64,000 bases of DNA, from positions 1,426,001 through 1,490,000 of the forward strand of contig NZ_CP110224.1 in NCBI RefSeq assembly GCF_026013645.1, in the 5' to 3' direction. The notes beneath the pieces were generated by a model that worked only from the letters and a program-made list of their open reading frames with translations, was not told the origin of the DNA and did not search any database. This DNA is from Virgibacillus natechei. Lineage in GTDB: Bacteria; Bacillota; Bacilli; Bacillales; Amphibacillaceae. Shown piece by piece: positions 16,464-39,251 of this stretch. Each line of letters begins with the position of its first letter. Within the stretch, counting starts at the first letter, position 1. The position numbers and the translations under genes are program-made.

Positions 16464-16898
16464 TTACTTCTGTTTACTATACCGCACTTTTAGATTTTCA
16501 AAGGCTCTTACTGCTGCCTGGGCAACTTGAACATCCTGTGCAACAGCACCGCCACTGGCACCAACAGCCCCTACAACTTTGCCGTCCTTCTCTAACGGAA
16601 AGCCGCCGCCGAAAATCACAATTCGCCCATCATTGGTTGTATTTAATCCGTATAAATCAGCGTTCGGAACAGTCAATTCCTCTAGGTCAGATGTTGGCAT
16701 TTTCAGTGCCACAGAAGTCCATGCTTTATTTTGCGCGATATCGATACTAGCTAACCAAGCGTCATCCATACGATGTGTTGCTACCAGATTTCCACCATCG
16801 TCTAAAACGGAAATGACCATAGAAACATCAATCTCGTTAGCTTCTTTTTCAGCAGCTTTAATAAGATGCTTAGCTACCTCTAAATTTAGTTTACTCAT
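16464..16898 (-). CDS. HbpS/GlcG-like (DUF336) protein, copy 1
   Basis: 144 residues, single HbpS-like domain. Family features are 'ISVLDDGGNLVATHRMDDA', 'KAWTSVALKMPT' and 'GGGFPLEKDGKVVGAVGASGG'. Members bind haem or corrinoid-like ligands (HbpS) or accompany glycolate, propanediol and aldehyde metabolism (GlcG, PduO C-domain). It is about 90 percent identical by eye to the protein at 17634-18050 but has a different, longer C-terminus (KVRYSKQK). The start follows GGGAGGAATTT. It is the distal gene of a duplicated FdhA-HbpS unit; the role in formaldehyde metabolism is inferred from neighbours. Confidence 0.88.
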   Translation of the reverse strand: MSKLNLEVAKHLIKAAEKEANEIDVSMVISVLDDGGNLVATHRMDDAWLASIDIAQNKAWTSVALKMPTSDLEELTVPNADLYGLNTTNDGRIVIFGGGFPLEKDGKVVGAVGASGGAVAQDVQVAQAAVRAFENLKVRYSKQK

Positions 16899-17633: not shown

Positions 17634-18050
17634 TCACTTTTCCAGGTTTTCAAAGGCTTTTACTGCTGCTTGGGCAACTTGAACATCCTGTGCAACAGCA
17701 CCGCCACTAACACCAACAGCTCCTATAACTTTCCCATCCTTCTCTAACGGAAAGCCGCCGCCGAAAAGCACAATTCGCCCGTCATTAGTTGTATTTAGTC
17801 CGTATAAATCAGCGTTTGGAACAGCCGCTTCCTCTAGGGAAGATGTTGGCATTTTCAGCGCGACAGAAGTCCATGCCTTATTTGGTGCGATGTCGATACT
17901 AGCTAACCAAGCGTCATCCATGCGATGTGTTGCCACCAGATTTCCACCATCGTCTAAAACGGAAATGACCATAGAAACATCAATCTCTTTAGATTCTTTT
18001 TCAGCAGCTTTAATAAGTTGCTCAGCTACCTCTAAATTTAGTTTACACAT
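17634..18050 (-). CDS. HbpS/GlcG-like (DUF336) protein, copy 2
   Basis: About 138 residues. It shares the DUF336 motifs of copy 1, and the C-terminus is shorter (KAFENLEK). Start 18050 is chosen because it aligns with copy 1 and keeps the same GGGAGGAATTTAT spacing; ATG 18053 is directly in front. It lies 48 bases after fdhA and is surely co-transcribed with it. The family often accompanies oxidoreductases acting on small alcohols and aldehydes; a scavenging or cofactor-binding role is inference. Confidence 0.88.
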   Translation of the reverse strand: MCKLNLEVAEQLIKAAEKESKEIDVSMVISVLDDGGNLVATHRMDDAWLASIDIAPNKAWTSVALKMPTSSLEEAAVPNADLYGLNTTNDGRIVLFGGGFPLEKDGKVIGAVGVSGGAVAQDVQVAQAAVKAFENLEK

Positions 18051-18098
18051 CATAAATTCCTCCCAATTTGAAATAGTAAGTTAATTTATTTTAAAAAT

Positions 18099-19313
18099 TT
18101 AACTTAACGAACCATGTGGATCAATAACGAATTTCTTTGCAACGCCGCCATCAAATTCTTTATAACCTGCAGGTGCTTCATCCAGAGAAATGACCGTTGC
18201 ATTTACAGCTTTCGCAATTTGCGCCTTGCCACTTAAAATGGATTGCATTAAATTTCTATGGTATTTCATTACTGGGGTTTGCCCAGTAACAAATGTATGT
18301 GCTTTTGCAAAACCTAAACCGAAGCGGATTTTTAACGAACCTTCTTGTGCATCTTTATCATCTGCACCTGGATCACCAGTTACATAGAGTCCTGGAATCC
18401 CTAAACGTCCCCCAGCCCGAGTGACACCCATGACGGAGTTTAATACAGTGGCAGGGGCTTCACCGGCGTTTTCTCCATGACCGCTTGCCTCAAAACCGAC
18501 CGCATCAATCGCACAATCCACTTCTGGTTCCCCTAATACTTGCTCGATTTGTTCCTCAAGATTAGCATGTTCTCTTAAGTTTACCGTTTCACAGCCAAAG
18601 CTTCTTGCCTGTGCTAACCTTTCTTCGATTAAGTCACCTACAATTACTACTGAAGCTCCGAGTAATTGTGCCGAGTGTGCAGCAGCCAAACCAACAGGAC
18701 CTGCTCCCGCTACATAAACAATTGAACCTGGTTTTACACCTGCACTTACCGCTCCGTGATATCCAGTTGGAAAAATATCAGAAAGCATGGTTAAATCAAG
18801 AATATTTTCCATAGCCTGATCTTTATCCGGAAACTTCAAAAGTTGAAAATCAGCATATGGAACCATAACGTATTCGGATTGACCACCAACCCATCCGCCC
18901 ATATCAACATAACCGTACGCTGAACCAGGACGATCTGGATTTACATTTTGGCAAATATGTGTATCCTGCTGCTTACAGTTTCTACAGCGTCCACAAGCAA
19001 TATTAAACGGAACCGATACAATATCACCCTTCTTCATAAATTCAACATCACGACCCACTTCCACAACCTCACCCGTAATTTCATGACCAAGCACTAGCCC
19101 GCTTGGTGCGGTCGTCCTTCCTCGAACCATATGTTGGTCACTTCCGCAAATGTTCGTCGTTATCACCTTTAAAATTACCCCGTGTTCACATTTACGTCCA
19201 ACGTTTAATGGGTTAACACCAGCTCCGTCTTTTAGAATGAGCTCTGGGAAACCGATATCTTCCACATCGACCTTTCCTGGTCTCTTATAGACGACACCTT
19301 TGTTGGCTACCAT
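18099..19313 (-). CDS. fdhA: Glutathione-independent formaldehyde dehydrogenase
   Basis: About 404 residues, zinc-dependent medium-chain dehydrogenase of the Pseudomonas putida FDH type. Catalytic zinc ligands are in ICGSDQH and GHEITGEV. Four structural-zinc Cys lie in 'CGRCRNCKQQDTHIC', and the Rossmann motif is 'GAGPVGLAAAHSA'. The family-typical long insert 'DRPGSAYGYVDMGGWVGGQ' is present. It oxidises formaldehyde to formate with NAD+, without glutathione. Start 19313 follows AGGAGGAATAG; an 18-base longer start exists. In this cluster it should remove formaldehyde released by demethylation of dimethylglycine and sarcosine. Confidence 0.92.
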   Translation of the reverse strand: MVANKGVVYKRPGKVDVEDIGFPELILKDGAGVNPLNVGRKCEHGVILKVITTNICGSDQHMVRGRTTAPSGLVLGHEITGEVVEVGRDVEFMKKGDIVSVPFNIACGRCRNCKQQDTHICQNVNPDRPGSAYGYVDMGGWVGGQSEYVMVPYADFQLLKFPDKDQAMENILDLTMLSDIFPTGYHGAVSAGVKPGSIVYVAGAGPVGLAAAHSAQLLGASVVIVGDLIEERLAQARSFGCETVNLREHANLEEQIEQVLGEPEVDCAIDAVGFEASGHGENAGEAPATVLNSVMGVTRAGGRLGIPGLYVTGDPGADDKDAQEGSLKIRFGLGFAKAHTFVTGQTPVMKYHRNLMQSILSGKAQIAKAVNATVISLDEAPAGYKEFDGGVAKKFVIDPHGSLS

Positions 19314-19509
19314 ATCTATTCCTCCTATCATTTTAACCGCTGTTTAATGAAAAATTATCATAATTGTAGATATGATTTTCTTTTCTCCCTTCATTAGGAT
19401 TGGAAAGTATTCTAGGATGTTTTTTTAGTTACCACTATCATAGCTCTAGTTTTTCATCAGGTAAAATAGCTAATATTGATGTTTGTTATCTGTAAAAATG
19501 ATACCAATT

Positions 19510-20442
19510 TTAATGATCTTTCTGTAAAGGGATAGGTTCATCATCTGTAACATTAAATCTCGGATTGGTTAATGGAGGATGGCCTATATTTGTGAATTCA
19601 TTTATCGTTTCGATGAACTTCTCCACCGTGTTTGTTAAATAGGCGTCTGCTCGCCTAATAAACACAGTTGAAATGTTACTATATTTATTAGGAATGGTGT
19701 GACATTGTATGAGTCCTTCTAATTCTAGATGGCTGACTGCAGATTGGGGGACTAGGCTGATTCCAAGCCCAGATACAACGCTTCCCAAAATCGTTTCTAA
19801 TGTACCGAATTCCATCACTTTCGCATTAAACACCCCCTCATCACGAAGCCAGGTTTCTAAGCGTTCACGGTAACTGCAACCCGAATTAAAAACGAGAAGG
19901 GGCCTGTTTTTTATGTTGTCAAAGTGGGTGTTTTTATTAACGTCAGATATTAAAACTAATTTTTCTTGAAAAACGTCAACTTGTTCCATATCCGGGTGTG
20001 TACCAAATCCTGTAACAAAGGCACCGTCCAGTTTACATTTCAAAATTTGATTGATAAGATCCTTTGTCACACCAATTTTTAGTGATAAATCTACGTTGGG
20101 GTATTTTCTATGATAGTTGGATAAAATCGTTGGGAGTTTCATAACGGTTTCAACTGTCCCGATCTCAAGGGAGCCTGAAGGGTTGTCAGAATCCTGGAAT
20201 GCTTTATTCGTCTTGTCTACCATGAATAAAATCTTCTCAGTGTAAGATAAAAGTTTTTTCCCTTCTGAGTTCAATGTTGTTCCACGACTGTGTCGATGAA
20301 ATAATTGGGTTTGCAAATTTGACTCTAATGACTTTATTCTAGCTGTTACATGGGATTGAACATAACTTAGTTCATTTGCTGCTTTACTTATGCTTCCATT
20401 TTGTGCAACGCTTTGAAAAATAAGCAAGTCTTTAATTTCCAT
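19510..20442 (-). CDS. LysR-family transcriptional regulator
   Basis: About 310 residues. The N-terminal winged helix-turn-helix reads 'LLIFQSVAQNGSISKAANEL' and 'SHVTARIKSLESNL', and a LysR effector domain fills residues 90-295. Start 20442 has GGAGGGGTT upstream; a 23-codon longer frame lacks a site. It is transcribed away from the region whose copy sits upstream of the dimethylglycine dehydrogenase gene (20500-20594 and 24246-24337). It is therefore the likely regulator of the methyl-amine genes on both sides. The inducer is unknown. Confidence 0.9.
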   Translation of the reverse strand: MEIKDLLIFQSVAQNGSISKAANELSYVQSHVTARIKSLESNLQTQLFHRHSRGTTLNSEGKKLLSYTEKILFMVDKTNKAFQDSDNPSGSLEIGTVETVMKLPTILSNYHRKYPNVDLSLKIGVTKDLINQILKCKLDGAFVTGFGTHPDMEQVDVFQEKLVLISDVNKNTHFDNIKNRPLLVFNSGCSYRERLETWLRDEGVFNAKVMEFGTLETILGSVVSGLGISLVPQSAVSHLELEGLIQCHTIPNKYSNISTVFIRRADAYLTNTVEKFIETINEFTNIGHPPLTNPRFNVTDDEPIPLQKDH

Positions 20443-20499
20443 TTGGAACCCCTCCAATAATTCGATTCGATTATAAATTTTCAATGAATCAGTGAAAAT

Positions 20500-20594
20500 G
20501 ATACAAGACATCTTTTCTAATCATTATGCAATAAGGCAATTTTATTTTATAATATATTTAAATATTAAACAAATCTTAATTATTGCAGTAATAT
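20500..20594 (+). repeat. Left copy of ~92-base diverged direct repeat
   Basis: Contains CATCTTTTCTAATCATT, CAATAAGGC, TTAAATATT and ACAAAT in the same order and spacing as 24246-24337 (roughly 75 percent identity). The pair brackets the GC-rich insert with the MetF-like and GcvT-like genes. As the upstream region of the LysR gene it probably holds the regulator's operator. Confidence 0.7.
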
Positions 20595-21228: not shown

Positions 21229-22047
21229 CTATACACTTCCCACTTTTTTAAGGGTGTCCAGTTCGTTAAACGTGTAAATGTGAAAGCCTGCGATACAAAA
21301 GTCTGATTCATTTAAGTACGGGGTGTAGGCGTTTACCAAATCGCCAGGATCATAGCCGCGCATCAGCTTCCTCGACAACTTCAGATTTTTTCTGAGGAAG
21401 CGGAGTGAATCAGTGACACCGATACGGGGGGCGATGCGAAGTAATTTATCCAATTTCACGGGACCTGGGATGCCCAGATAGCACGGCAATCGAAGACCGG
21501 ATGCGCGCTGTTGCTGCAGCCAGGCAAGGACCTGCTCGGGATCAAAGCACATTTGTGTCACGGCATAATCTGCAAGGGAGGCTTTTGCTGCAAAGTCCTG
21601 ATTGAGTGTTTCTGTCTCGATATGCAGGTGACCTTCCGGATACGCAGGAATACCGATGCGATGCGGCCTGTTTTCGTGTGTAGCCAAAGACTGCACTAAT
21701 TCAAGGCCATGATCATACGGACCCAGTTGTTTTTCCTGATCCCCTCCAATGATAAATACTTCGTGCATATCATGATCAGCGAGGCGATCAAGCACCGTAT
21801 TAAGATGTTCTTCACTTCGGATCATCCGCGCTGCAATATGGGGAATAACCTTAGCGAAATGTGGTGCTAATGCAATTGATTTGTCGATCGTAGCATCGAT
21901 CCCATTCGTCGGTGAGCAGGTGATTGTCAACGTGGCATGGGAAGGAAGTGCCGCAGTGGCCCGTTCAACGATATCCTTAGCGGGTATGAGCTCAAAGCGG
22001 GGGCCCCCCGTTTGGTTGAACAGAGCCGCTGAAGATTGCTGATCCAT
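21229..22047 (-). CDS. MetF-like methylenetetrahydrofolate reductase
   Basis: About 272 residues, a TIM-barrel of the MTHFR family. Early 'RFELIPAKD' stands where MetF has FEFFPPK-type sequence. 'LTITCSPTNGIDATIDKS', 'IPHIAARMI', 'EVFIIGGD' and the CxxP-like 'VTQMCFDPEQV' follow the family order. It interconverts 5-methyl- and 5,10-methylene-THF with a flavin. It is divergent from housekeeping MetF, and lies just downstream of a GcvT-like methyltransferase in a GC-rich block, as in THF-dependent O-demethylase loci (ligM-metF). The likely role is re-oxidation of methyl-THF made by that partner. Start 22047 has AGTAGGG nine bases upstream; 22056 and 22122 are alternatives. Confidence 0.82.
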   Translation of the reverse strand: MDQQSSAALFNQTGGPRFELIPAKDIVERATAALPSHATLTITCSPTNGIDATIDKSIALAPHFAKVIPHIAARMIRSEEHLNTVLDRLADHDMHEVFIIGGDQEKQLGPYDHGLELVQSLATHENRPHRIGIPAYPEGHLHIETETLNQDFAAKASLADYAVTQMCFDPEQVLAWLQQQRASGLRLPCYLGIPGPVKLDKLLRIAPRIGVTDSLRFLRKNLKLSRKLMRGYDPGDLVNAYTPYLNESDFCIAGFHIYTFNELDTLKKVGSV

Positions 22048-22198
22048 TATGGTCATCCCTACTTTCTTTTTAATATGATCAATATAAGGAAAGCCACATG
22101 ACCTCTGTAATAGAGCCGTCATGATTTTGTCAATTTCTCTAACGATCAGTGGCCAAAATGCCTTACAAGCGATTCAATTCTCAGGCAGCGAAATATAT

Positions 22199-22230
22199 GT
22201 GCAGTGGGTCTGCAAACAGACCCACTGCAC
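22199..22230. other. Perfect 14-bp hairpin between GcvT-like and MetF-like genes
   Basis: GTGCAGTGGGTCTG, loop CAAA, CAGACCCACTGCAC, with no mismatch and no T run. It begins 10 bases downstream of the GcvT-like stop and may stabilise that mRNA or reduce MetF-like expression. Confidence 0.7.
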
Positions 22231-22239
22231 TAGATATTA

Positions 22240-23541
22240 TCACGTCTCAAGCTTTCGGCCGGTTTGGGTATATCCCGTCCCTGGGTTTTCAGAAGGCTTG
22301 AACGGCGTCTGCGCAACCTCCCCCGGAACACGTCCGATGGCGTATGGTTCGGGCAGGTGTACTTCAAGCTTGGTCCCAATCATACTGAATAAGTTGGGCA
22401 GCATTGCGTAACCAATGTTGCACCCCTGGTTCGGCGAATAGAAGGCAGAGGTGACATAGCCGATCGGCTCCGCGCCGCCTTCTGCGTAGACCATATAGAA
22501 ATCTGCTGGATACCAATCGATTTTATCGCCGCCGAATTTCAGCCCGACTAGCTTTTTAGTAACACCTTCGTTCTCAATGCGGGTTAGGGCTTCTTTGCCG
22601 ATAAAGTGGTCTTTGGTCAGATCCACTTGCCACCTTAAGCCCACTTGGTATGGGTTGGTCTCTTGGTCCATATCCTGTCCATAGGAAAGGATTCCCGCTT
22701 CAAGCCGCCGTATATGGCCTGGAGCAATCACTTTTAGATTATGTGGTTCACCCGCCTCAAGGAGAGGATACCAGAACTTTTCGGCGTTGATACTGGCATT
22801 ATAGAGATAAATCTCAAAGCCTGCTTCACCCGAGAAACCCGTGCGGGACACGATGACGGGGCAATCGTTCACTTCCCCCTCCATCAGCCCGTAGTAAGGA
22901 ACGTCATGAATACGCTTGCCAAATAAATCGACCATGAATGATGTTGATTTTGGCCCTTGAATTTGTACGGGAGACACATCGATTTCGCGTACGGTGCAAT
23001 CAAAGTTGTTCATGATATTAAGCGCCTGAAGCCACAGCGACACGTCGCTGTCGGATAAAGAGAACCAAAACTCATCTTCATGCGGACGAAGAAGAACCGG
23101 ATCATTGATGATGCCGCCTTCATCATTGCATAAAATAACGTAGCGTGCTTTTCCTGTCTTGACTTTATCGACTGAGCGCGTGATCGCCAAGTCCACCAGC
23201 TTTGGGGCATCAGGGCCTTTCACCTGGATTTGTCGCTCTACCGCTACATTCCAAAGCGTGACGTGTTCGGTGAGATATTCGTATTCCTTGAGGAGACCGC
23301 CCTCCTCCATCGGGACATAGGCACGCGGGTGGTACATGTTGTTGTAAACCGTATAGCACCATGCCCCGGCTTCTTCGGAAAGGTGCCAGAATGGAGACTT
23401 GCGCACTCTTTGCGATATAAGCATGCGTGAGCCATTATCTCCGCTTTGACGCAGATTGGTCGGGACGTGTCTTTGCGCGCCCCCTTCCTCGAGATCATTA
23501 GACGTTTTGAACTTTGATACAGGTGTTTCTTCAATAGCCAT
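22240..23541 (-). CDS. GcvT/DmdA/LigM-like THF-dependent methyltransferase
   Basis: About 433 residues. An N-terminal extension of 40-50 residues is followed by the GcvT fold. 'LTEHVTLWNVAVERQIQVKG' and 'TRSVDKVKTGKARYVILCND' match the early folate-binding core. Later come 'GFSGEAGFEIYL', 'GHIRRLEAGILSYGQDMD', 'GLRWQVDLTKDHFIGKEAL' and the GCV_T_C end domain. It transfers a methyl or methylene group from an N-, O- or S-methyl substrate to THF. No gcvP or gcvH lies nearby, so it is not the glycine-cleavage T protein. The substrate is unknown; glycine betaine is a plausible guess from context. The start has AAGGAGGAAATC. GC content is visibly higher than in flanking genes. Confidence 0.85.
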   Translation of the reverse strand: MAIEETPVSKFKTSNDLEEGGAQRHVPTNLRQSGDNGSRMLISQRVRKSPFWHLSEEAGAWCYTVYNNMYHPRAYVPMEEGGLLKEYEYLTEHVTLWNVAVERQIQVKGPDAPKLVDLAITRSVDKVKTGKARYVILCNDEGGIINDPVLLRPHEDEFWFSLSDSDVSLWLQALNIMNNFDCTVREIDVSPVQIQGPKSTSFMVDLFGKRIHDVPYYGLMEGEVNDCPVIVSRTGFSGEAGFEIYLYNASINAEKFWYPLLEAGEPHNLKVIAPGHIRRLEAGILSYGQDMDQETNPYQVGLRWQVDLTKDHFIGKEALTRIENEGVTKKLVGLKFGGDKIDWYPADFYMVYAEGGAEPIGYVTSAFYSPNQGCNIGYAMLPNLFSMIGTKLEVHLPEPYAIGRVPGEVAQTPFKPSENPGTGYTQTGRKLET

Positions 23542-24245
23542 ACCGATTTCCTCCTTTTCGTTATAAAGGAATATAATTCCCAATCTCGTAAACGGTACTT
23601 TCCTGAATGATCGGCATTTGAATTCGGCACTTGCCACCGCCACCGGAACCCCAAACGTTCAATCTATCAGAAACGTGGTAACACCCCAGACCACCCATAA
23701 GCGACTAGTGAAATTTTGATATCAGCCCCGTATCATTGATTTCGCGTATCATACCCCCTTTACGTATTAAAAATTGTTTCTTAATTCTGAACTGAAAATC
23801 AATTGCTTAATAAAGCGCATACATTACAGGTTATGATGACATACACGCGTTGTGCCTATGCATCACATAATATATCATTAAAGTTTAGGCCGCATTGTCC
23901 TTTTCATATTTCTGGCTTCTGAACAAACACTTCGGTAACATTTTTATTCCCATCAGTGTAGTGGCAATCGGTTACATAAAATTCTGAATACAGCCAGACA
24001 GTGGATGATTTTAAGTTCTGCGCAAGAGTTATCCTAATTTTGCTAAAAGTAAATATTTTATTTAACGCAAATATATTAGAAACCCAGGCTGATGTCAAGA
24101 TATTATTTTAAAATATTTTTGATAGTCGTTTTAAGCAAAATCTATATCAATAAATTTCGGAGGGATGCGTTAGTTGACGTATGGTAAATAGGCTCCACGG
24201 TTCCCTGTACGATATTCCTTCAAATTACCACCGTTCAGTTTTCGT
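23542..24245. other. Divergent intergenic region, no intact gene
   Basis: About 700 bases between the GcvT-like gene and the right copy of the flanking repeat. GC content drops sharply after about 23760, which marks the edge of the GC-rich insert. A short minus-strand frame at 23904-24098 has no ribosome site or family match. Confidence 0.5.
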
Positions 24246-24337: not shown

Positions 24338-24557
24338 TGGAAATAAAAGTTGTGATTTGGTTTACGATGAAATTTTAAATGACTATTCGGGATTGAAAAA
24401 TAACAGCAAGTGCTATTTCGATTTGGAAACGGTTGCATATACATGTAACTAAAAATTACAAAACAACCGTGGATATGAACAGAATTAAGAATCACAAAAT
24501 ATGTTGGATAGCAATCAAATTTGTCATTGTTATTCAGAAAAATGGGGATGGGTGATT

Positions 24558-26984
24558 ATGGAACAAAAAAGAATTGTGATCATTGGTGCTGGTGTCGTTG
24601 GATGTAGTACTGCTTATTATTTAAACAAAATGGGCCAACAAGATATCACAGTCATCGATCAAGGTCCTCTGTTTGAAACAGGGGGTTCGACTTCTCACGC
24701 TCCAGGACTTGTTGCACAGCTTAATTTTTCGAAATTGCTTACAGCATTTGCTTCACAAACGGTTGCAGATTTTACAGAGTTGGGTGACGGAGAACGGCCT
24801 TCTTATTATCCAGTGGGTAGTTTAGAGTTAGCTAGAACACCGGAACGTCTAAATGATTTAAAGCGGAAGGCAGGGGCAGGGAAATCATGGGGGATAGAGG
24901 CACATGTACTTTCGCCGAAAGAATGCAAGGAAAAGAATCCCGTTATTAATCCGGATACGATTCTAGGAGGATTGTATGTACCAACAGATGGAATTGCTAA
25001 GCCCCTTCGTGCTATAAACAGAATGGCAGATTTCTCTAAGTCTTGTGGTACGAAGTTTTACGGTAATACAGAAGTAACCGGGATTAACATGATAGACGAT
25101 CAAGTTAAAGGAGTAGAAACAAGTATTGGAGATTTTGAAGCAGACCTGGTCATTTGTTGTGCGGGTTTTTGGGGGCCACAAATAGGAGAAATGGCAGGTG
25201 TAACCATTCCTCTTCAGCCCATTGCACACCAATATATATTTTCAAATGATATACCTGAGTTAGCTGGAGAGTCGGAAGAAGTAACATCTCCAATTATTAG
25301 GGATTTGGATAGTTCCATGTACTATCGCCAAGTGTTTAATAGCATAGGAATTGGTTCTTATCAACATGAAGCATTACCTATTGAGATAAGTGAGGTTTCT
25401 AAATATGGTGAAAGTGCGGATATGCCGTCAATCAAGCCGTTTACACCCGAACATTTTCTTGGCAAGCCCTGGAAAGATGCGCAAAATCTAATACCTGGAC
25501 TAAAAGAGGCAGGACGGAAAAGAGGGATAAACGGAATCTTTTCGTTTACACCGGATGGAATGCCATTATTAGGTGAATCAGAAAAAATACGAGGATTTTG
25601 GGTTGCTGAAGCAGTTTGGATAACACACTCAGCGGGTGTTGGTAAACAAATGGCTGAATGGATTATAAACGGTGCTCCAACCCTTGATTTGGAACTGTGC
25701 GATATTAATCGTTTTGATTCTTATGCGCAAAGTCCGACTTATTATAAACCGCGTTCAAAAGAAGACTATGAAAAGGTATATGATATTCACCATCCGTTTG
25801 AGACACCTGCCACATCACGCAATATGCGGATCATCCCATATTATATACGCCAGCAGACATTGGGGGCTTTTTTTAATGAAAGTCTAGGATGGGAACAGCC
25901 ACAATGGTATGAAGCTAATGAATCACTTACTGAAAGGTATGAAAATAGGATTATTAAACGCGACGGCTGGCAAGCGCGCTATTGGTCACCGATTATTGAA
26001 GCGGAACATCTGCATATACAAGAACATGCCGGCCTATATGATGTAACGGCAATGAATAAACGACTGGAAATCAGTGGTGAAGATGCACTTACATTTCTAC
26101 AAACACTTACAACAAGCAATATCGATATTTCTATCGGCAGTATGACAAATGCTTTAATGCTGCATGAATTAGGAGGAATTAAAGATAAAATCACAATCAT
26201 TCGCAAAGATAATCAAACATTCATTATTCTTTGTACAAGTGCGGTAGAAGCAAACTGGATACAAAAACATGTCTGGAAATCAGGTGAAATAGTCATCCAG
26301 GATAAAACAGCAAGCACGTGCGGTCTAGGTATCATAGGGCCAGGGGCTAGAGATGTCATGCAGTCCATTGATCCTCAAGTATTTGCCGAAGGCGCATGGG
26401 AAGCGAAACAAGTGAAGGAAATTTATATCAACAATATACCGGTTCTAGCAGCATTCGACTCTAAATGTGGTTTGGAGTATTGGGAGTTTTTTACTACGAA
26501 TGATCAAGGCTTACCACTTTGGGATGTACTCTATCAAGCAGGGCAGGCCAATGAGCTAATTGCGGTTGGAGACCGTGCCCTTGAAAGCTTGCGTATTGAA
26601 TCACAGACATTAAGGTACGGAAAAGACTTTTGGAGTGAGCATAACCCATACGAGATTAATCTGAATGCATGGATTGATCTGACGAAAGATTTCATTGGAA
26701 AAAAAGCTTTAATCGAACGTGGTAAAAAAGGTCCCAATCTCGTATCGTCAACACTTGTTCTCGATCAACCGGATAAGGTAGTTATGGGCCATGAACCTGT
26801 TATGAACAATGGAAAAACAGCTGGTTTTGTCACAAGTGCAGGCTTTAGCTACAGTCTGGGAAGGGGAATTGTCACTGCCTTGTTAGATCCCAAGGCTTTG
26901 GAAAACGATACGGAATGGAATATTGAATATTTTGGACAAAAAATCAGTGCCACAGTTCTCCAAAAACATAATATAATCACATAG
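24558..26984 (+). CDS. Dimethylglycine dehydrogenase/oxidase-like FAD-folate enzyme
   Basis: 808 residues, the size of two-domain dimethylglycine dehydrogenases and oxidases. An N-terminal DAO domain (1-370) has the dinucleotide motif 'IIGAGVVGCSTAYYLNKMG' and 'GGSTSHAPGL', where the His is the usual covalent FAD site. A linker FAO_M domain follows, then GcvT folate-binding domains (about 430-800) with 'GLYDVTAMNKRLEISGEDAL' and 'WIDLTKDFIGKKALI'. The enzyme removes one N-methyl group from dimethylglycine, giving sarcosine, with methylene-THF or formaldehyde as C1 product. Start 24558 has GGGATGGGTG upstream; the longer frame to 24501 is poor. A sarcosine dehydrogenase role cannot be excluded. 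Confidence 0.88.
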   Translation: MEQKRIVIIGAGVVGCSTAYYLNKMGQQDITVIDQGPLFETGGSTSHAPGLVAQLNFSKLLTAFASQTVADFTELGDGERPSYYPVGSLELARTPERLNDLKRKAGAGKSWGIEAHVLSPKECKEKNPVINPDTILGGLYVPTDGIAKPLRAINRMADFSKSCGTKFYGNTEVTGINMIDDQVKGVETSIGDFEADLVICCAGFWGPQIGEMAGVTIPLQPIAHQYIFSNDIPELAGESEEVTSPIIRDLDSSMYYRQVFNSIGIGSYQHEALPIEISEVSKYGESADMPSIKPFTPEHFLGKPWKDAQNLIPGLKEAGRKRGINGIFSFTPDGMPLLGESEKIRGFWVAEAVWITHSAGVGKQMAEWIINGAPTLDLELCDINRFDSYAQSPTYYKPRSKEDYEKVYDIHHPFETPATSRNMRIIPYYIRQQTLGAFFNESLGWEQPQWYEANESLTERYENRIIKRDGWQARYWSPIIEAEHLHIQEHAGLYDVTAMNKRLEISGEDALTFLQTLTTSNIDISIGSMTNALMLHELGGIKDKITIIRKDNQTFIILCTSAVEANWIQKHVWKSGEIVIQDKTASTCGLGIIGPGARDVMQSIDPQVFAEGAWEAKQVKEIYINNIPVLAAFDSKCGLEYWEFFTTNDQGLPLWDVLYQAGQANELIAVGDRALESLRIESQTLRYGKDFWSEHNPYEINLNAWIDLTKDFIGKKALIERGKKGPNLVSSTLVLDQPDKVVMGHEPVMNNGKTAGFVTSAGFSYSLGRGIVTALLDPKALENDTEWNIEYFGQKISATVLQKHNIIT

Positions 26985-27212: not shown

Positions 27213-28271
27213 ATGTTTAGAATACTAAAAATTGCTGGTGCTGTTATAGGGGTTGTTATAGGCGCTGGTTATGCATCAGGGCAAGAAGTATTACAATATT
27301 TCACAAGTTTCGGCCATAAAGGCACTTATGCAGCAATTTTAGCAACCGCCTTATTAGCATATATGGGAATGATTATGGCGAATGTTGGGAGCCGTCTGAG
27401 GGCAACATCACATAGGACAGCCATCTATCAAATTAGCGGTCGTCATCTAGGCATGGTGATAGACGGTATCATTATATTCACTTTATTTGGTACCGGAGTG
27501 CTTATGATGGCTGGTGCAGGATCTACGCTTAATCAACAGTTTGGATTACCAGTTTTTGTTGGCAGTTTAATAATGGCTGTTATTGTTGCAATTTCTATGA
27601 TGCTTAAGGTCGAAAAAGTCATTTCTGTCATTGCAAGTGTTACACCACTCTTACTTCTATTTGCTATATTCATTTTTATTTACAGTTTAAGCACGATGGA
27701 GATGTCTTTTGCAGAGCTTAAGCCAATTGCAGAAAGTCAAGACAAACCATTTTCTAACTGGATCGTAGCCGCAGTAAACTATGCTTCTTTATGCGTGGCT
27801 TTGGGAGTTTCAATGACATTTGTTATAGGTGGGGCAGAAAAAAATTCACGTATTGCAGCAATTAGCGGGTTACTCGGCGGACTTGGTATAGGAATCATGG
27901 TTACCCTTGCCCACTTAGCAATTTTCTCCCAAGTAAATGTCGTTGCATCATTCGACTTGCCATTACTGAAGATTGTTGAAGATATTTCGCCATTACTTGC
28001 ATTTTTGTATTCTATTGTTTTGTTTGGAATGATCTTCAATTCAGTTCTTGGTATGTTTTATAGTTTTATTGCTAGATTTTTTAAAATGGGTACAAATAAG
28101 TCGAATATTGCAACCATCATGGCTTTAGCAATTGGATTTGCTTTAAGTTTTGTTGGATTTACTACTTTAGTATCTAAGTTTTATACGCTTGTAGGTTATT
28201 TGGGTTTATTACTAATGATCATTCTTATCTACGCGCCTTTTAAACTAAAACGTTCAGAACAAAAAGGTTAA
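27213..28271 (+). CDS. YkvI-family membrane transporter
   Basis: 352 residues with about ten membrane helices. The N-terminus 'IAGAVIGVVIGAGYASGQEV' is the signature of YkvI-type proteins, distant relatives of the APC/LeuT-fold carriers, with the unwound-helix 'GAGYASGQE' in helix 1. The substrate is unknown. Its place between dimethylglycine dehydrogenase and sarcosine oxidase suggests uptake of a methylated glycine such as dimethylglycine or sarcosine. Confidence 0.85.
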   Translation: MFRILKIAGAVIGVVIGAGYASGQEVLQYFTSFGHKGTYAAILATALLAYMGMIMANVGSRLRATSHRTAIYQISGRHLGMVIDGIIIFTLFGTGVLMMAGAGSTLNQQFGLPVFVGSLIMAVIVAISMMLKVEKVISVIASVTPLLLLFAIFIFIYSLSTMEMSFAELKPIAESQDKPFSNWIVAAVNYASLCVALGVSMTFVIGGAEKNSRIAAISGLLGGLGIGIMVTLAHLAIFSQVNVVASFDLPLLKIVEDISPLLAFLYSIVLFGMIFNSVLGMFYSFIARFFKMGTNKSNIATIMALAIGFALSFVGFTTLVSKFYTLVGYLGLLLMIILIYAPFKLKRSEQKG

Positions 28272-28427: not shown

Positions 28428-29606
28428 ATGACAAAACATTATGACGTGATAGTAGTTGGTGCTGGTTCAATGGGAATGGCTGCTGGGTATTATTTAGCAA
28501 AACAAGGAGTTAAAGTATTACTTGTTGATTCTTTTGATCCGCCGCATGATAAGGGCAGTCACTATGGTGATACCCGAATTATTCGTCATGCTTACGGGGA
28601 AGGAAGAGAATATGTTCCGCTTGCTCTTCGCTCTCAAGTGTTATGGGATGAGCTAGAAAAAAAGACACATCACAAAATATTCATGCAAACTGGCGCCATG
28701 GGGTTTGGTAAAAAAGGAGATGCTCCCTTTATTGATGAAGGGATTGCCAGTGGAAAAGAATATAATCTGGAAGTTGAACACTATACTGGGGCAGAGCTGA
28801 AGGAACATTATCCAGGGTTGCAAATTCCCGATGATTATGATTCCTTTTATGAGCCAAAGTCAGGATTCTTATTTAGCGAAAATTGTATCCAGGCTTATCG
28901 AGATTTAGCGGAACACCATGGAGCCGAATTTTCAATAAACGACCCGGTTAGAGATATTGAAGCGTATGATGATTCTGTGAAAGTGATTACAGAAAAAGGT
29001 GCATTTACCGCCGATAAGTTAGTGATTAGTGCCGGATCTTGGAGTGGAAAAATAACATCTAAAGTTGGTCTTGATCTGCCACTTATTCCGACTCGTCAAC
29101 CTGTGGCTTGGTTTGAAGCTGATGAATCATTATTTAATGCAAACGCCTTTCCCACTTTCATGGTTGAAATTCCAAATGGTGAAAACAGAGCAATATATTA
29201 CGGCTTTCCAAGCTTTGGTGGGTGTGGAGTAAAGGTAGGAAGGCATGAATATGTTGATGCCATTAACCCGGATACAATGAACCGTGAATTCGGATCCAAT
29301 GCAAACGACGAAGGCCATATACGCGAGTTCCTGGATAAGTTCATGCCTAAAGCATCCGGAGCGTTAAAGAATGGAGTAATCTGCATGTATACAAGAACCC
29401 CAGATGGTCACTTTATTATTGATAAACATCCGGAACACTCCCATATATCGATTGCTGCCGGGTTTTCAGGACATGGATTCAAGTTTGCGAGTGTTGTAGG
29501 GGAAATTTTATCACAATTAGCCGTGTCGGGCGAAACCGATCATGATATTTCAATCTTTAGGATAAACCGACCAAGTTTGCAGGAATCGAGTGTAACAAAA
29601 AATTAG
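28428..29606 (+). CDS. soxA: Monomeric sarcosine oxidase
   Basis: 392 residues, very like Bacillus monomeric sarcosine oxidase throughout. The FAD motif is 'VIVVGAGSMGMAAGYYLAKQ', substrate and flavin residues lie in 'GDTRIIRHAYGEGREYVPL', and the covalent FAD Cys is in 'GVICMYTRTPDGHF', followed by 'AAGFSGHGFKFASVVGEIL'. It oxidises sarcosine to glycine, formaldehyde and H2O2. The start follows AAGGAGGAATTTG. It is a separate transcription unit by spacing, but functionally continues the dimethylglycine dehydrogenase step. Confidence 0.95.
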   Translation: MTKHYDVIVVGAGSMGMAAGYYLAKQGVKVLLVDSFDPPHDKGSHYGDTRIIRHAYGEGREYVPLALRSQVLWDELEKKTHHKIFMQTGAMGFGKKGDAPFIDEGIASGKEYNLEVEHYTGAELKEHYPGLQIPDDYDSFYEPKSGFLFSENCIQAYRDLAEHHGAEFSINDPVRDIEAYDDSVKVITEKGAFTADKLVISAGSWSGKITSKVGLDLPLIPTRQPVAWFEADESLFNANAFPTFMVEIPNGENRAIYYGFPSFGGCGVKVGRHEYVDAINPDTMNREFGSNANDEGHIREFLDKFMPKASGALKNGVICMYTRTPDGHFIIDKHPEHSHISIAAGFSGHGFKFASVVGEILSQLAVSGETDHDISIFRINRPSLQESSVTKN

Positions 29607-29894: not shown

Positions 29895-30557
29895 ATGAGG
29901 TATAGTTCAGTTTTTGATATTATAGGTCCAGTTATGATCGGTCCATCAAGTTCACATACGGCGGGAGCAGCCCGTATCGGTAAAGCAGCTCGGAATTTAT
30001 TTGGCAAAGAGCCTAAATGGGCAAAAATACATCTCTATGAATCGTTTGCCAAAACCTATAAAGGGCACGGCACAGACTTTGCTTTAGCGGGCGGTTTATT
30101 AGGATTCGAAACGGATGACACGCGAATGAGTAAAGCCCTTGAAATCGCTTCAGAAAAAGGTGTGAAAATCGAATTCGTAGAAGACAGTGCAAAAGCAGAC
30201 CACCCAAATACAGCACGGCTCATTATTGGTAATGATACAGAAAGGCTGGAACTTTCCGGTATTTCGATTGGTGGCGGAAAAGTGGAAATCACGGAGCTGA
30301 ATGGATTTGAACTACGGTTGTCGGGAAATTATCCAGCGATTTTAATTATGCATAATGACCGGTTTGGGGCCATTGCTTCTGTTACGAAGATATTGGCAAA
30401 ACATGAAATAAATATAGGACATATGGAAGTTAACCGTAAAGATGTAGGGGAAGAGGCATTGATGGTTATCGAGGTAGATCAGAATGTTGAAGATCCTGTT
30501 CTAAAAGAATTAGAGTGCGCTGATCATATTATCCAGATTTCAAAAATTGCTAATTGA
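29895..30557 (+). CDS. sdaAB: L-serine dehydratase, beta subunit
   Basis: 220 residues. The beta-subunit domain opens with 'VFDIIGPVMIGPSSSHTAGA'. A C-terminal ACT domain (about 145-220) reads 'NYPAILIMHNDRFGAIASVT'. With the alpha subunit it forms the [4Fe-4S] dehydratase that turns L-serine into pyruvate and ammonia. The start has GGTGGTGACGC upstream. It lies 25 bases from sdaAA. Confidence 0.94.
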   Translation: MRYSSVFDIIGPVMIGPSSSHTAGAARIGKAARNLFGKEPKWAKIHLYESFAKTYKGHGTDFALAGGLLGFETDDTRMSKALEIASEKGVKIEFVEDSAKADHPNTARLIIGNDTERLELSGISIGGGKVEITELNGFELRLSGNYPAILIMHNDRFGAIASVTKILAKHEINIGHMEVNRKDVGEEALMVIEVDQNVEDPVLKELECADHIIQISKIAN

Positions 30558-30582: not shown

Positions 30583-31458
30583 ATGTTTAGAACAGTTGCT
30601 GAGTTAGTGGAGACTGCTGAGAAGGAAAATATTTTGCTATCTGAAGTTATGATTCGCCAGGAAATCGATGTTAAAAACAAATCACGTGCCGAAGTATTCA
30701 CAGAAATGGAAAAAAACCTGGAAGTCATGGAAAATGCTATAGGGGATGCATTAAAAGGCGTGCAGTCCGTAACAGGATTAACAGGCGGCGATGCCGTACT
30801 CATTCAAAAGTACATGAAGGAAAAGACACCATTATCCGGAAATTTAATGATGGACGCTGTCAGCAAAGCAATGGGGACAAATGAAGTAAATGCAGCAATG
30901 GGCACAATTTGTGCTACTCCCACTGCCGGAAGCGCTGGTTGTGTACCAGGAACGCTTTTTGCAGTGAAAGATCAGTTAAATCCTACACGTGAACAAATGA
31001 TTCGTTATTTATTCACATCAGGGGCATTTGGGTTTGTTGTTGCTAATAATTCGTTTATCTCCGGGGCAGCGGGAGGTTGTCAGGCGGAGGTAGGATCAGC
31101 TGGTGCGATGGCCTCTGCTGCAATCGTCGAAATGGCAGGGGGCAGCCCGCAGCAGTCTGCTGATGCGTTTGCCATTACACTGAAAAACATGCTGGGTTTA
31201 GTATGCGATCCAGTAGCGGGACTGGTTGAAGTTCCTTGCGTTAAGCGTAATGCAGCAGGTTCATCACTTGCAATCGTATCCGCTGATTTGGCACTGGCTG
31301 GTGTAACAAGCAGAATTCCTTGTGATGAAGTAATCGGGGCAATGTACCGCATTGGTAAACAAATGCCATCCAGCTTGCGCGAAACTGGGGAAGGTGGGCT
31401 TGCAGACACTCCAACAGGCCGTTTATTAAAAGAAAAAATGTTTGGAATGTCCATATAG
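30583..31458 (+). CDS. sdaAA: L-serine dehydratase, alpha subunit
   Basis: 291 residues. The family core shows 'GTICATPTAGSAGCVPGTL', 'GGCQAEVGSAGAMASAA', and 'GLVCDPVAGLVEVPCVKRN'. These contain the Cys residues that hold the [4Fe-4S] cluster. The RBS is AAAGGAGGGGG. In this locus it completes the route glycine plus methylene-THF to serine to pyruvate, provided glycine hydroxymethyltransferase is supplied elsewhere in the genome. Confidence 0.94.
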   Translation: MFRTVAELVETAEKENILLSEVMIRQEIDVKNKSRAEVFTEMEKNLEVMENAIGDALKGVQSVTGLTGGDAVLIQKYMKEKTPLSGNLMMDAVSKAMGTNEVNAAMGTICATPTAGSAGCVPGTLFAVKDQLNPTREQMIRYLFTSGAFGFVVANNSFISGAAGGCQAEVGSAGAMASAAIVEMAGGSPQQSADAFAITLKNMLGLVCDPVAGLVEVPCVKRNAAGSSLAIVSADLALAGVTSRIPCDEVIGAMYRIGKQMPSSLRETGEGGLADTPTGRLLKEKMFGMSI

Positions 31459-33376: not shown

Positions 33377-34378
33377 ATGTCAAGGATACAAATACCGTTA
33401 TCGGTTTTAAATTTAGCGCCTATTCGCCAAGGAGAGGGTCCAAAAGAAGCCATTGATTCAATGATCGATTTGGCTCAAGCTACAGAAAAGATGGGGTATA
33501 CACGATATTGGATTGCGGAACATCATAATACGCCGACATTAGTGAGTTCAGCTACTTCCATATTGATTAAACATACCCTGGAGCACACTGAATCCATACG
33601 CGTTGGATCTGGGGGAATTATGCTGCCTAATCATTCCCCGTTGGTTGTAGCCGAACAATTTGGAACGATGGCAACGATTTATCCGGATCGATTAGACTTG
33701 GGACTTGGCAGGGCACCTGGTACAGACATGCTAACTGCCGATGCTCTAAGGCGATCTCAAAATGATTCGGTTTATACATTTCCTGAGGATGTAAAAACTT
33801 TACTTAAGCATTTTGGACCAGATGAAGTTCAAGGTTTTGTAAAAGCCCATCCAGGTGTTGATACGAATGTTCCGATTTATGTCCTTGGTTCTTCGACAGA
33901 TTCAGCTGTATTGGCTGCTAAATTAGGATTGCCGTATGTATTCGCTTCTCACTTTGCCCCAAAACATATGGAAGAAGCTATTTCCATTTATCGGAGTCAA
34001 TTTAACCCATCAGAGTACTTAGACGCGCCTTATATGACGGTCTGTTTGAATGTGATTGCAGCTGATAGTGATGAAGAAGCAAAATTTGAATCGACAACCA
34101 TGCATCAATTTTTCTTGAATATAATACGTGGCTCCCAATCGCCGTTAAGTCCTCCTGTTGAAAACATGGATCAACTTTGGGATTCGCGTGAGAAAGAAGC
34201 GGCTTCATCAATGTCAAGCATGATTCTGACAGGAAGTAAAGATTCGGTACGTGAACAATTGACCCGTTTCCAGGAAAAATATGATGTGGATGAAATCATG
34301 GCCATATCATATATGTATGACAAGGACAAACAAAAACGATCTTACGAAATCTTAAAAGAAGTCGTAGACGGAAAATAA
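33377..34378 (+). CDS. LLM-class flavin-dependent oxidoreductase 1 (YwcH-like)
   Basis: 333 residues, a luciferase-like TIM barrel. The N-terminus '[20 protein letters not shown]' and '[18 protein letters not shown]', '[20 protein letters not shown]' and '[13 protein letters not shown]' form the hallmark of the MsnO8/YwcH branch. Members use FMNH2 and oxygen on unidentified substrates. It is monocistronic with GAGGGAGAAATG upstream, and two other LLM enzymes occur in the window (35042 and 61800). Confidence 0.9.
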
Positions 34379-34400
34379 ATAACTTATATCCGGGGAGTGA

Positions 34401-34429
34401 GGTGCCTGTCACTTCCCGGTATTTGTCGA
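34401..34429 (+). repeat. GTGCCTGTCACTTCCCG repeat, copy R5
   Basis: GGTGCCTGTCACTTCCCG + GTATTTGTCGA, lying 23 bases after the first LLM gene stop, with a TTTTTGATTAAGG tail like R4. Confidence 0.8.
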
Positions 34430-34481
34430 CCAAGTATTTTTGATTAAGGGCTAGTTTTGTGATTTGGAAGCACCAACTAGT

Positions 34482-34829
34482 TTACATGCTCTTTTTATTT
34501 AATTTATTCATCTTGTGTAACGTGTGTTTCGTTCCCCATTCATGCATGGCTTCTAAAATTGGTTCCAAGCTCCGGCCATATTCAGAAATGGAATACTCAA
34601 CTTTTGGCGGAACCTGTGGGTATACAACGCGCTCTATAATGTCTTCATCCTCAAGTTCTCGTAACTGCTTTGTCAACATCTTCTGCGTGATTCCAGGCAT
34701 GCTGCGTTTAAGCTCGCTGAATCTTTTCGTACCTTCCTGCAATAGGTATAGTAAGATAATGGGTTTCCATTTCCCTACTAAAATGCCTAATGCATCTTCC
34801 ACACGACATAAGTCCGGCTGCTTGTCCAT
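34482..34829 (-). CDS. HxlR-family transcriptional regulator 2
   Basis: 115 residues. 'CRVEDALGILVGKWKPIILL' holds the conserved Cys and GKW, then 'ELKRSMPGITQKMLTKQLRE'. It is divergent from the LLM/FMN-reductase operon at 35042-36683, so it most likely controls that operon in response to quinones, aldehydes or similar electrophiles. The start follows GGAGGAGATAAA. Confidence 0.9.
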   Translation of the reverse strand: MDKQPDLCRVEDALGILVGKWKPIILLYLLQEGTKRFSELKRSMPGITQKMLTKQLRELEDEDIIERVVYPQVPPKVEYSISEYGRSLEPILEAMHEWGTKHTLHKMNKLNKKSM

Positions 34830-36097: not shown

Positions 36098-36116
36098 TTA
36101 GGAGTTGAATAAATAA

Positions 36117-37489: not shown

Positions 37490-37685
37490 GCGATTTTGCT
37501 TGCTTAGAAGAAGTTTTGTGGATGTGAGTATCTGCTACTTTCTATTTTTATTTGTGTATTTTCGCTTTGATTAAGTTTTACAGGTTTATTCATGTGGTAA
37601 TAAGCAAGTATATTGTAAAAAGGGAGTGATCTTCTTAAAAACAGTGGAATACTTACTTTTTCAAATATAATTGGAGGGGTCTTTA

Positions 37686-39251
37686 ATGAGTAAGAAAAGT
37701 AAAGGGGCGAGTAAAAGGGGATTAATAGATTACAAAATTTTTGTCCCATCTTTACTTATTATTATCGCAATCAGTATTCCTTTCTCCATGTATGAAGATG
37801 AGTCCTTTCATTTGTTGAATAGCATTTTTGCTCAGATTGTGGATCTATTTTCATGGGGTTACATATGGTATGCCATTATACTGGTTGCCGCAGGGTTGTA
37901 TCTGTCATTCTCCAAGTACGGGGATGTTGTTTTAGGTGATCCGACAGAGAAGCCGAGGTTCACATTATTTGAATATTCCTCGATATTAATTGCAATGGGG
38001 CTAGGATCCACCATTATGCGGACAGGGATGACTGAATGGGCCAATATCGCAGTTGATCCGCCGTTTGGCGCGGAAGCTGGTTCGGCTGATGCATTATTAT
38101 GGGGAAATGCATATAGCATGTTCATGTGGAGCTTCCAGGTGTTTGCCATCTTTGTTATGGCAGCACCCGCAATGGGTTATATTTTGCATGTTCGGAAGAA
38201 ACCATTTATGCGAATATCCGAGGCATGTCGTGTTATTTTTGGAGATAAGTTTACGGATGGTCTAGGCGGCACGATACTGGATATTATCTTTCTAGTTAGC
38301 ATACTCTCAGGTGCTGCTGTTACCTTAGGGTTGGGAACCCCTATTGTGACCTATAATTTAGCTGAAATATTCAACATCGAGATTACATTTGGCTTAACAT
38401 TGATCGTGACCATTGTATGGGTATTTCTATTCTCCATCAGTGCTTATTTAGGAATAGAAAGAGGTATCAAACGATTAAGTACCTTTAATATGTACCTTGC
38501 TGGCGGGTTTGCTATATTCATCATGATAGTGGGGCCTGGTATATTCATCCTTAATTACTTTACAGACACTGTCGGCTTCCTGTTATCGAATTATGTCGAT
38601 ATATCCCTTTACACGAACGCTTTAGATATGGGTGGAACCACACATATGGAAAGCAATACTATATTTTGGTTTGCCTATAGCGCTACATGGGCTATGCTGC
38701 ACAGTATATTTGCTGCAAAAATATCCCGGGGCAGGACCATAAGAGAAATGATATTAACATATTTATTAGCTCCCACGCTTATTTCTTGGGTAGCAACAGG
38801 GATACTTGGAGGTCTTGGTGTACACAGGTATCTAACTGGAGAAGTTTCTGTATTGGAGGTTGTACAGGAAGATGCTATGGCAGTCATACCAGAAATATTG
38901 AGTTCGTTGCCTTTTTCTACTATTGCACTTGTAGTCTTTGTTATCATTGCGATGATTTTCATGGTTACGACATTGGACTCGACAACGTATACAATTGCAT
39001 CTTATACAGGTACCAAGAATATGAGTGTAGCAGAACCTTCCAAGCATCTGCGGTTAATTGTTGCAGCCATCATAACTGTACTTGCTCTGGCCTTGCTGAG
39101 AATAGGTGGTCTGGCTCCACTGGAAGTTCTTTCCGGGATCATGGGAATACCGATCATTGTTATCCAGTTCCTTACCATCTACGCTGCAAAGAAAATGATG
39201 GATGAGGATAAGGCATGGATAAATAATGTGAGGAATAAAAAAGAGAAGTAA
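37686..39251 (+). CDS. Divergent BCCT-family transporter
   Basis: 521 residues with 12 predicted helices. The charged block 'AAKISRGRTIREM' is the conserved BCCT segment after helix 8. However, the helix-8 signature (normally WTxFYWxWW) reads 'NTIFWFAYSATWAML', and the Gly-rich helix-3 segment (normally GMGIG) reads 'IAMGLGSTIMRTG'. It is therefore BCCT by fold but probably not a standard betaine or choline carrier. ATG 37686 follows TTGGAGGGG. Its exact substrate is unknown. Confidence 0.85.
   Translation: MSKKSKGASKRGLIDYKIFVPSLLIIIAISIPFSMYEDESFHLLNSIFAQIVDLFSWGYIWYAIILVAAGLYLSFSKYGDVVLGDPTEKPRFTLFEYSSILIAMGLGSTIMRTGMTEWANIAVDPPFGAEAGSADALLWGNAYSMFMWSFQVFAIFVMAAPAMGYILHVRKKPFMRISEACRVIFGDKFTDGLGGTILDIIFLVSILSGAAVTLGLGTPIVTYNLAEIFNIEITFGLTLIVTIVWVFLFSISAYLGIERGIKRLSTFNMYLAGGFAIFIMIVGPGIFILNYFTDTVGFLLSNYVDISLYTNALDMGGTTHMESNTIFWFAYSATWAMLHSIFAAKISRGRTIREMILTYLLAPTLISWVATGILGGLGVHRYLTGEVSVLEVVQEDAMAVIPEILSSLPFSTIALVVFVIIAMIFMVTTLDSTTYTIASYTGTKNMSVAEPSKHLRLIVAAIITVLALALLRIGGLAPLEVLSGIMGIPIIVIQFLTIYAAKKMMDEDKAWINNVRNKKEK

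Follow-up and report, generated by a model that had tools for sequence, protein, structure and literature searches.

We report here a GcvT-like/MetF-like gene pair of the halophilic bacterium Virgibacillus natechei, located in a window of 64,000 nucleotides that covers bases 1426001-1490000 of its 3.87 Mb single-contig genome (NZ_CP110224.1); positions below are those of the window. Comparison of sequences and neighbourhoods suggests that the GcvT-like protein is probably a glycine betaine:tetrahydrofolate (THF) methyltransferase, with the MetF-like protein re-oxidising the methyl-THF. This reading is drawn from the linkage of the GcvT-like gene to a dimethylglycine oxidase/dehydrogenase-like gene (hereafter DMGDH), the recurrent MetF-like neighbours, the absence of a match to the classical first-step enzymes in this genome, the absence of DmdB, DmdC and DmdD at 150 bits or above from the compared loci, and an apparent swap of partners beside DMGDH. 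On balance, and a little more cautiously, we also favour the view that GcvT-fold betaine:THF methyltransferases form a large family, and thereby a further demethylation route free of O2, cobalamin and homocysteine.

The GcvT-like and MetF-like genes

The open reading frame (ORF) of the GcvT-like protein extends over 22240-23643 of the reverse strand, with a GTG start and 467 aa, and an internal ATG at 23541 gives a GcvT-fold protein of 433 aa (22240..23541). Since AAAGGAGG lies directly upstream of this ATG, the 433 residues and the coordinates of the original prediction fit. In Pfam the protein has GCV_T (145.5 bits) and GCV_T_C (45.7 bits), both above cutoffs, which places it in the aminomethyltransferase (AMT) superfamily. 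It scores 301.6 bits with the NCBIfam model of DmdA (NF009133; cutoff 410, with an annotated Phaeobacter DmdA at 600.3), 185.1 and 158.8 bits with the T-protein models PRK00389 (cutoff 300) and TIGR00528 (cutoff 235.85), and 41.3 and 45.1 bits with the LigM model (580) and a second LigM/DesA model (800), so that none of them is passed. Its best solved-structure match is the Pelagibacter ubique DmdA (211 bits). The predicted structure, with a mean predicted local distance difference test (pLDDT) value of 77.3 and poor confidence at residues 63-72, has DmdA 3tfh as its top fold match (template modelling score 0.77/0.89), and also matches T-proteins. An identity as plain GcvT is rejected, because both T-protein cutoffs are missed and the catalytic Asp is replaced by Asn. 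Identity as DmdA is likewise rejected, given the missed cutoff, the separate clade, the Phe at the residue tied to dimethylsulfoniopropionate (DMSP) and the lack of DmdB/C/D neighbours at 150 bits or above. By the tests run on its sequence, the protein is neither of LigM type nor of DmdA type, and falls into a clade that is sister to the DmdA group.

The divergent MetF-like gene (21229..22122, reverse strand, 297 aa) has an uncertain start, and the ATG at 22047, which has AGGG upstream and would give about 272 aa, seems preferable to 22122. The protein passes the Pfam MTHFR family PF02219 with 39 bits (gathering score 24), of which it is the sole match in the genome, and stays under the cutoff of the classical MetF equivalog TIGR00676 (55 of 293.7 bits). 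Its nearest solved structure is 7xg9 (98.8 bits), which we take to be the MetF of SYK-6. ORFs and Pfam domains thus agree with the predicted order of a GcvT-fold protein followed by a divergent MetF-like one on the same strand. Just 3' of the GcvT-like stop and between the two genes there is a perfect hairpin (22199..22230, reverse strand; 14-bp stem, 4-nt loop, z -5.05), whose weak T tail makes co-transcription of the pair plausible; the hairpin may attenuate MetF expression.

Search for the classical first step

PMC12478193 (2025) assigns the first demethylation of betaine in aerobes to GbcAB, Bhmt or MtgBCD. The genome-wide search gives no match to BHMT (PF02574) and none to MtgB/MTTB (PF06253); of 14 control genomes, 9 are positive in the first of these searches and 1 in the second. 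With the GbcA model NF058607 (cutoff 670), the best score in the genome is 110.9 bits, and no full-length GbcA is found. The genome has five Rieske matches (PF00355). The one of 427 aa, which gives the 110.9 bits, is rejected as GbcA, being by family score a benzoate-dioxygenase-like alpha subunit, and the 162-aa ORF beside it is read as the beta subunit. The other four (136, 128, 524 and 175 aa) are rejected by their ORF lengths, and none passes the GbcA model at E <= 1e-20. The suggested search for gbcA, bhmt and mtgB homologues therefore finds no classical first step, and the claim that neither a GbcAB- nor a BHMT-type enzyme is present is supported: BHMT gives no match, and none of the Rieske proteins comes close to the GbcA cutoff.

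A separate clade and its conserved residues

A profile was built from 32 relatives of the GcvT-like protein. One scan of genome contigs gives at least 577 relatives, and the best 80 were kept as loci for neighbourhood counts; these, two haloarchaeal plasmids and the window make up 83 target loci, some counts being over 81 loci. The scan of viral contigs gives no relative. All 83 target loci score at least 527 bits, with DmdA-like paralogues at 385 or below, DmdA at 242-281 and GcvT-type rows at 189-193. In a quick maximum likelihood tree of 86 rows, which include five of DmdA and 65 of the 83 target loci once near-copies are removed, the target forms one clade with a support of 95 in the Shimodaira-Hasegawa-like approximate likelihood ratio test (SH-aLRT), and DmdA and a second DmdA-like group fall outside; long-branch warnings make the order of the outer groups unsure. 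The clade is found in Bacillota, Chloroflexota (including SAR202), Pseudomonadota (including a Pelagibacteraceae genome and SAR86), Actinomycetota, Gemmatimonadota, Acidobacteriota, Nitrospinota and haloarchaea. Among named proteins, the closest ones come from the halophilic Bacilli Lentibacillus cibarius (86%), L. halophilus, Geomicrobium, Natribacillus and Salicibibacter.

The catalytic Asp of GcvT is presumably D97 in E. coli numbering, and a D97N mutant appears in the title of structure 3a8k. At this position Asn is present in all 65 target rows, all five DmdA rows and all eight of the DmdA-like group, and the GcvT rows have Asp in two and Glu in one. One Trp of DmdA is reported to be DMSP-specific in a passage of PMC7487153. 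There the target has Phe in 64 rows and Trp in one, the DmdA-like group has Trp in all eight, and DmdA has Trp in three and Tyr in two (both from Roseobacter). In addition, Y70, H71, P72, R73, Q193, H276, R278 and Y344 are invariant in the 65 target rows. The other groups lack H71, H276 and Y344 at these positions; the DmdA-like group has Q193 and R278 too, and part of it also Y70 and R73. The clade residues may form a pocket for a carboxylate and a cation.

The second DmdA-like group also occurs on two Roseobacter plasmids (L093:7968-12046 and L095:7971-12118), lined up with genes for OsmC, enoyl-CoA hydratase and acyl-CoA synthetase. The L093 protein scores 371.4 bits, under the DmdA cutoff of 410, and both are candidates for a demethylase of DMSP or methylmercaptopropionate (MMPA).

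Neighbourhoods of the clade

On the whole, a member of the DMGDH cluster is present at 54 of the 83 loci, or at 51 of 81 by a stricter profile score of 850 bits. A MetF-like gene occurs at 36 of 81 loci, the window counted; at 35 of them no more than 500 nt separate it from the GcvT-like frame, and at 30 of these 35 the two share a strand. Further neighbours, counted over the 81 loci from 150 bits upwards and with query proteins mostly drawn from these loci, are Fhs (14), the alpha subunit of heterotetrameric sarcosine oxidase (14), a GbdR-type AraC regulator (10), BCCT (6), the alpha subunit of electron transfer flavoprotein (5), GMC/choline dehydrogenase-like (4), gamma-butyrobetaine hydroxylase-like (4) and GlyA (2). 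Of the ten GbdR-type regulators, that of L035 alone was scored with the GbdR model, which it passes (508.7 bits, cutoff 480). At L083 the GMC protein passes the BetA model (799.2, cutoff 732.1) and an ABC ATPase is narrowly under the choline model (476.6 of 483.75). DmdB, DmdC or DmdD reaches 150 bits at none of the 81 loci, and there is one weaker DmdB match. As a control, five DmdA-type plasmid loci have DmdB in four (one being the query source), DmdC in the source alone, and DmdD in the source with a further weak match at another locus; as DmdC and DmdD are nearly confined to the query source, their controls are weak.

SoxB-like, SoxA-like, (SoxG), DMGDH, MetF-like and GcvT-like genes stand in a single-strand row at eight loci (L061, L062, L069, L070, L075, L076, L077 and the Pelagibacteraceae locus L080), the SoxA domains and SoxG being confirmed in L077 alone. 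The eight loci are candidates for carrying all three demethylations together. On the two haloarchaeal plasmids, a stretch of about 17 kb holds GcvT-like, MetF, GlyA and BCCT genes together with two FAD and GcvT fusions.

The linkage was compared with chance in 47 genomes including that of the window, with 47 of the 80 loci chosen for longer contigs or wider taxonomy and L046 left out. DMGDH is detected at E <= 1e-60 in 44 genomes, and in 36 of the 47 the GcvT-like gene has it within 10 kb (18 within 1 kb), where 0.46 are expected given the number of DMGDH genes and the rounded sizes of the genomes. None of ten DmdA-related paralogues in the same genomes has DMGDH within 10 kb (two of them are not placed on the tree). 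Relatedness inflates the 36 of 47, yet the DMGDH neighbours of the clade span several bacterial phyla and haloarchaea.

Two partners of one DMGDH lineage

The FAD and GcvT-domain fusion of the window (24501..26984, forward strand) is named by no NCBIfam equivalog among the 25 families listed. Its best full-length solved relative is N,N-dimethylglycine oxidase (639 bits), and dimethylglycine dehydrogenase gives 334 bits. In 299 genomes of the window's order, this DMGDH is found in five at E <= 1e-100 and the GcvT-like gene in one, the window's own. The four other DMGDH genomes, all of one genus, carry at a distance of about 1.3 kb from DMGDH a Rieske oxygenase that is GbcA-like and 82-84% identical to a Priestia query protein; a fifth, weaker oxygenase match falls in a genome of the order without this DMGDH. 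The DMGDH matches of three of these four genomes (G241, G166 and G192) contain one or two stop codons inside the matched range.

A Priestia megaterium plasmid carries DMGDH, solA, the oxygenase and BCCT, followed by gcv, sda and glyA genes, and its DMGDH is 64-65% identical to that of the window. In a midpoint-rooted tree of 40 DMGDH rows once near-copies are removed, six of them GbcA-like rows, the window DMGDH clusters with the Priestia plasmid and one of the four genomes (SH-aLRT 100), and this cluster falls among the DMGDHs that have GbcA-like neighbours (95). With the partner labels mapped onto this tree, its starred branches force at least two changes. Judged from these sequences, the GcvT/MetF pair apparently stands in place of the GbcA-like oxygenase beside the window DMGDH, and one DMGDH lineage with two alternative partners is what is expected if both make dimethylglycine. 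Together with the 36 linked genomes and the 35 close MetF neighbours, this swap lends support, as a comparative inference, to the proposal that the pair removes the first methyl group from betaine.

Proposed pathway and the gene cluster

From these comparisons we infer the substrate, the reaction and the direction of MetF. The GcvT-like protein would bind betaine and THF and move one methyl group from the quaternary nitrogen of betaine to N5 of THF, giving dimethylglycine and 5-methyl-THF. This step, which would need no O2, homocysteine or cobalamin, is modelled on DmdA, which takes a methyl group from the sulfonium of DMSP. The MetF-like protein, working in the oxidative direction, would convert 5-methyl-THF to 5,10-methylene-THF, and DMGDH would convert dimethylglycine to sarcosine and methylene-THF. 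Sarcosine would then yield glycine and formaldehyde by a monomeric sarcosine oxidase or SolA-type amine oxidase (28428..29606, forward strand), which scores 454.9 bits with NF008425 (N-methyltryptophan oxidase, cutoff 257) and 418.4 bits with soxA_mon, under its cutoff of 479.65. The formaldehyde would be oxidised by a glutathione-independent formaldehyde dehydrogenase (FdhA, 18099..19331, reverse strand). A presumed GlyA would join glycine and methylene-THF into serine, from which L-serine dehydratase (SdaB beta subunit, 29895..30557; SdaA alpha subunit, 30583..31458; both forward strand) would form pyruvate and ammonia. FdhA, SdaB and SdaA score above their family cutoffs, and family scores and solved relatives bear out the cluster of dimethylglycine dehydrogenase, sarcosine oxidase, formaldehyde dehydrogenase and serine dehydratase that had been described.

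The opposite-strand run begins 959 bases from the pair and consists of DMGDH, a membrane protein, sarcosine oxidase, SdaB and SdaA. The membrane protein (27213..28271, forward strand), presumably YkvI-like, is a candidate transporter without a match in the family scan. A LysR-type gene found in the family scan (19510..20511, reverse strand), a candidate regulator of the cluster, and the formaldehyde dehydrogenase gene share the strand of the pair. A BCCT transporter lies further away (37671..39251, forward strand), beneath the carnitine and betaine equivalog cutoffs in the family scan. No gcvP or gcvH family is found among the ten cluster ORFs scanned, as had been noted for the surroundings of the pair. 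The genome has three GCV_T genes, namely DMGDH, the GcvT-like gene and a separate gcvT located elsewhere. No Rfam match is found at positions 16000-42000. Two HbpS-like genes (PF03928) are located at 16464-16898 and 17634-18053 on the reverse strand; the Geomicrobium locus L010 has two relatives of them, L083 and L086 have one each, and the L091 cluster includes a gene annotated as heme-binding. Near the BCCT gene, two luciferase-like monooxygenases and an MsuE/SsuE-like FMN reductase occupy 33377-36683 of the forward strand.

Evidence on the other side and alternative explanations

Several observations weigh against a betaine:THF methyltransferase. Forty-five of the 81 loci have no MetF-like gene, some being short contigs, and the MetF-like group is not uniform, as the positions we take for the catalytic Asp and Gln of MTHFR carry D in 25 and Q in 29 of 36 proteins, the window having both. 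Similarity was the basis on which the loci were chosen, and related genomes do not count as independent. DMGDH is missing within 10 kb in 11 of the 47 genomes, of which Geomicrobium, Enterovibrio and Halomonas have none at E <= 1e-60. Geomicrobium has a flavin oxidoreductase, presumably DgcA-like, as a possible stand-in, which scores best with the mycofactocin OYE model, under cutoff. GbcA is above cutoff in four of the 47, and five more have a full-length GbcA-like protein (382-411 bits), so that in these nine genomes the pair is redundant or doing something else. In each of the Brevibacterium genomes G338 and G343 the GbcA-like and GcvT-like genes have their own DMGDH, in two clusters, GbcA-like with DMGDH (L141, L142) and GcvT-like with MetF and DMGDH (L150, L151), which reflects either redundancy or a different substrate; in this comparison the oxygenase means the RHO_P0122 rows only, the row GbcA_L097 being the longest ORF of its locus. 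In Kocuria (G317) a single DMGDH lies between a GbcA-like gene and a GcvT-like gene 10.2 kb away. The oxygenases of the partner swap scored are all under the GbcA cutoff (221.5 to 411 of 670), and the replacement across the order depends on one other genus. The signature Y70-R73 sits within the low-confidence stretch of the model, and SAR11 is credited with Bhmt in passages of PMC3160333 and PMC12478193.

The nine genomes with an oxygenase and the two Brevibacterium clusters would also fit a GcvT-like protein that demethylates another quaternary ammonium compound, such as proline betaine, carnitine or trigonelline, whose product shares the one-carbon (C1) pathway and hence the linkage to DMGDH, and the gamma-butyrobetaine hydroxylase-like genes at four of 81 loci point the same way. 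We regard this as fairly unlikely, since it is DMGDH, sarcosine oxidase and C1-folate genes that recur beside the clade, GbdR-type regulators (10 of 81) and choline dehydrogenase-like genes (4 of 81) occur with them, and the window DMGDH is so close to the Priestia DMGDH that adjoins a GbcA-like oxygenase. Another explanation, improbable in our judgement, combines two parts: the GcvT-like protein would be an auxiliary aminomethyl or methylene transferase that helps DMGDH or sarcosine oxidase to load methylene-THF, with MetF supplying methyl-THF for methionine and betaine entering via another enzyme. Methylene transfer is typical for the GcvT fold, and the genome has three Meth_synt_2 matches, all weak, and no other MTHFR match than the MetF-like gene; however, DMGDH already has a fused GcvT domain, the catalytic Asp is Asn in all 65 rows, and the pairing with MetF recurs.

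A demethylase of DMSP or MMPA, in line with the guess of Sun et al. 2011 on SAR11_1265, has in its favour that DmdA is the best match in solved structures and in fold, that the protein scores 301.6 bits with the DmdA family model, and that the Asn is common to both. But the score is beneath the cutoff, the clade is separate, Phe replaces the reported DMSP-specific Trp in 64 of 65 rows (though two Roseobacter DmdAs carry Tyr), none of the 81 loci has DmdB, DmdC or DmdD at 150 bits or above (one has a weaker DmdB match), and 3 of 50 genomes carry a DmdA above cutoff in addition to the clade member, all of which makes such a substrate very improbable. The balance of this evidence favours betaine as the methyl donor.

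Relation to known systems and significance

GbcAB needs O2 and yields formaldehyde. This Rieske monooxygenase is assigned to the step proposed here, and GbcA-like oxygenases adjoin the same DMGDH lineage, but it is not homologous to the GcvT-like protein and is not found in this genome. DmdA, the DMSP:THF demethylase of P. ubique (3tfh), resembles the GcvT-like protein in its GcvT fold, expected folate acceptor, Asn in place of the GcvT Asp and onium-osmolyte donor. Unlike DmdA, the latter stands in its own clade and under the cutoff, has the YHPR motif and Phe in place of Trp/Tyr, and neighbours DMGDH and MetF rather than DmdB/C/D. LigM/DesA with MetF, of O-demethylation in SYK-6, is likewise a GcvT-fold demethylase working with MetF, but on aromatic O-methyl substrates, and the GcvT-like protein reaches only the LigM score given above. 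The net reaction of betaine and THF to dimethylglycine and methyl-THF is the same in MtgBCD with MetF2 of R. pomeroyi (in the main text of PMC12478193), where the metF paralogue metF2 lies downstream of mtgD (Mausz 2025), and in Desulfitobacterium MtgA/MtgB; these systems are cobalamin-dependent and of PF06253, which this genome lacks. The main text of Mausz 2025 nowhere mentions GcvT or DmdA, and our full-text literature search, with most subscription papers and bioRxiv outside its scope, finds no GcvT-like protein assigned to betaine:THF.

In SAR11, the GcvT-like/AMT gene SAR11_1265 adjoins the metF SAR11_1264, and passages of Sun 2011 (PMC3160333) describe it as closely related to dmdA and guess an MMPA demethylase. 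This pair is similar to ours in that a GcvT-like gene stands beside metF, and the Pelagibacteraceae locus L080 has the target clade with MetF-like and DMGDH genes; it differs in the MMPA guess, and the clade link is via L080 and not HTCC1062 itself. Both genes changed in a sulphur-limitation experiment according to part of PMC5069961, to which we give no weight here.

Our analysis thus places the clade beside dimethylglycine-degrading genes across many unrelated microbes. Glycine betaine is a common osmolyte of saline water. If the proposed function is true, it would explain the use of betaine by genomes without GbcAB, Bhmt and MtgBCD, and a cell could load betaine methyl groups directly onto folate. 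A marker gene would also be gained, now annotated merely as aminomethyltransferase or similar. The proposal offers a testable function for the SAR11 metF-AMT pair, left unassigned in the passages of Sun 2011 considered here, and would bear on whether Pelagibacteraceae depend on Bhmt alone.

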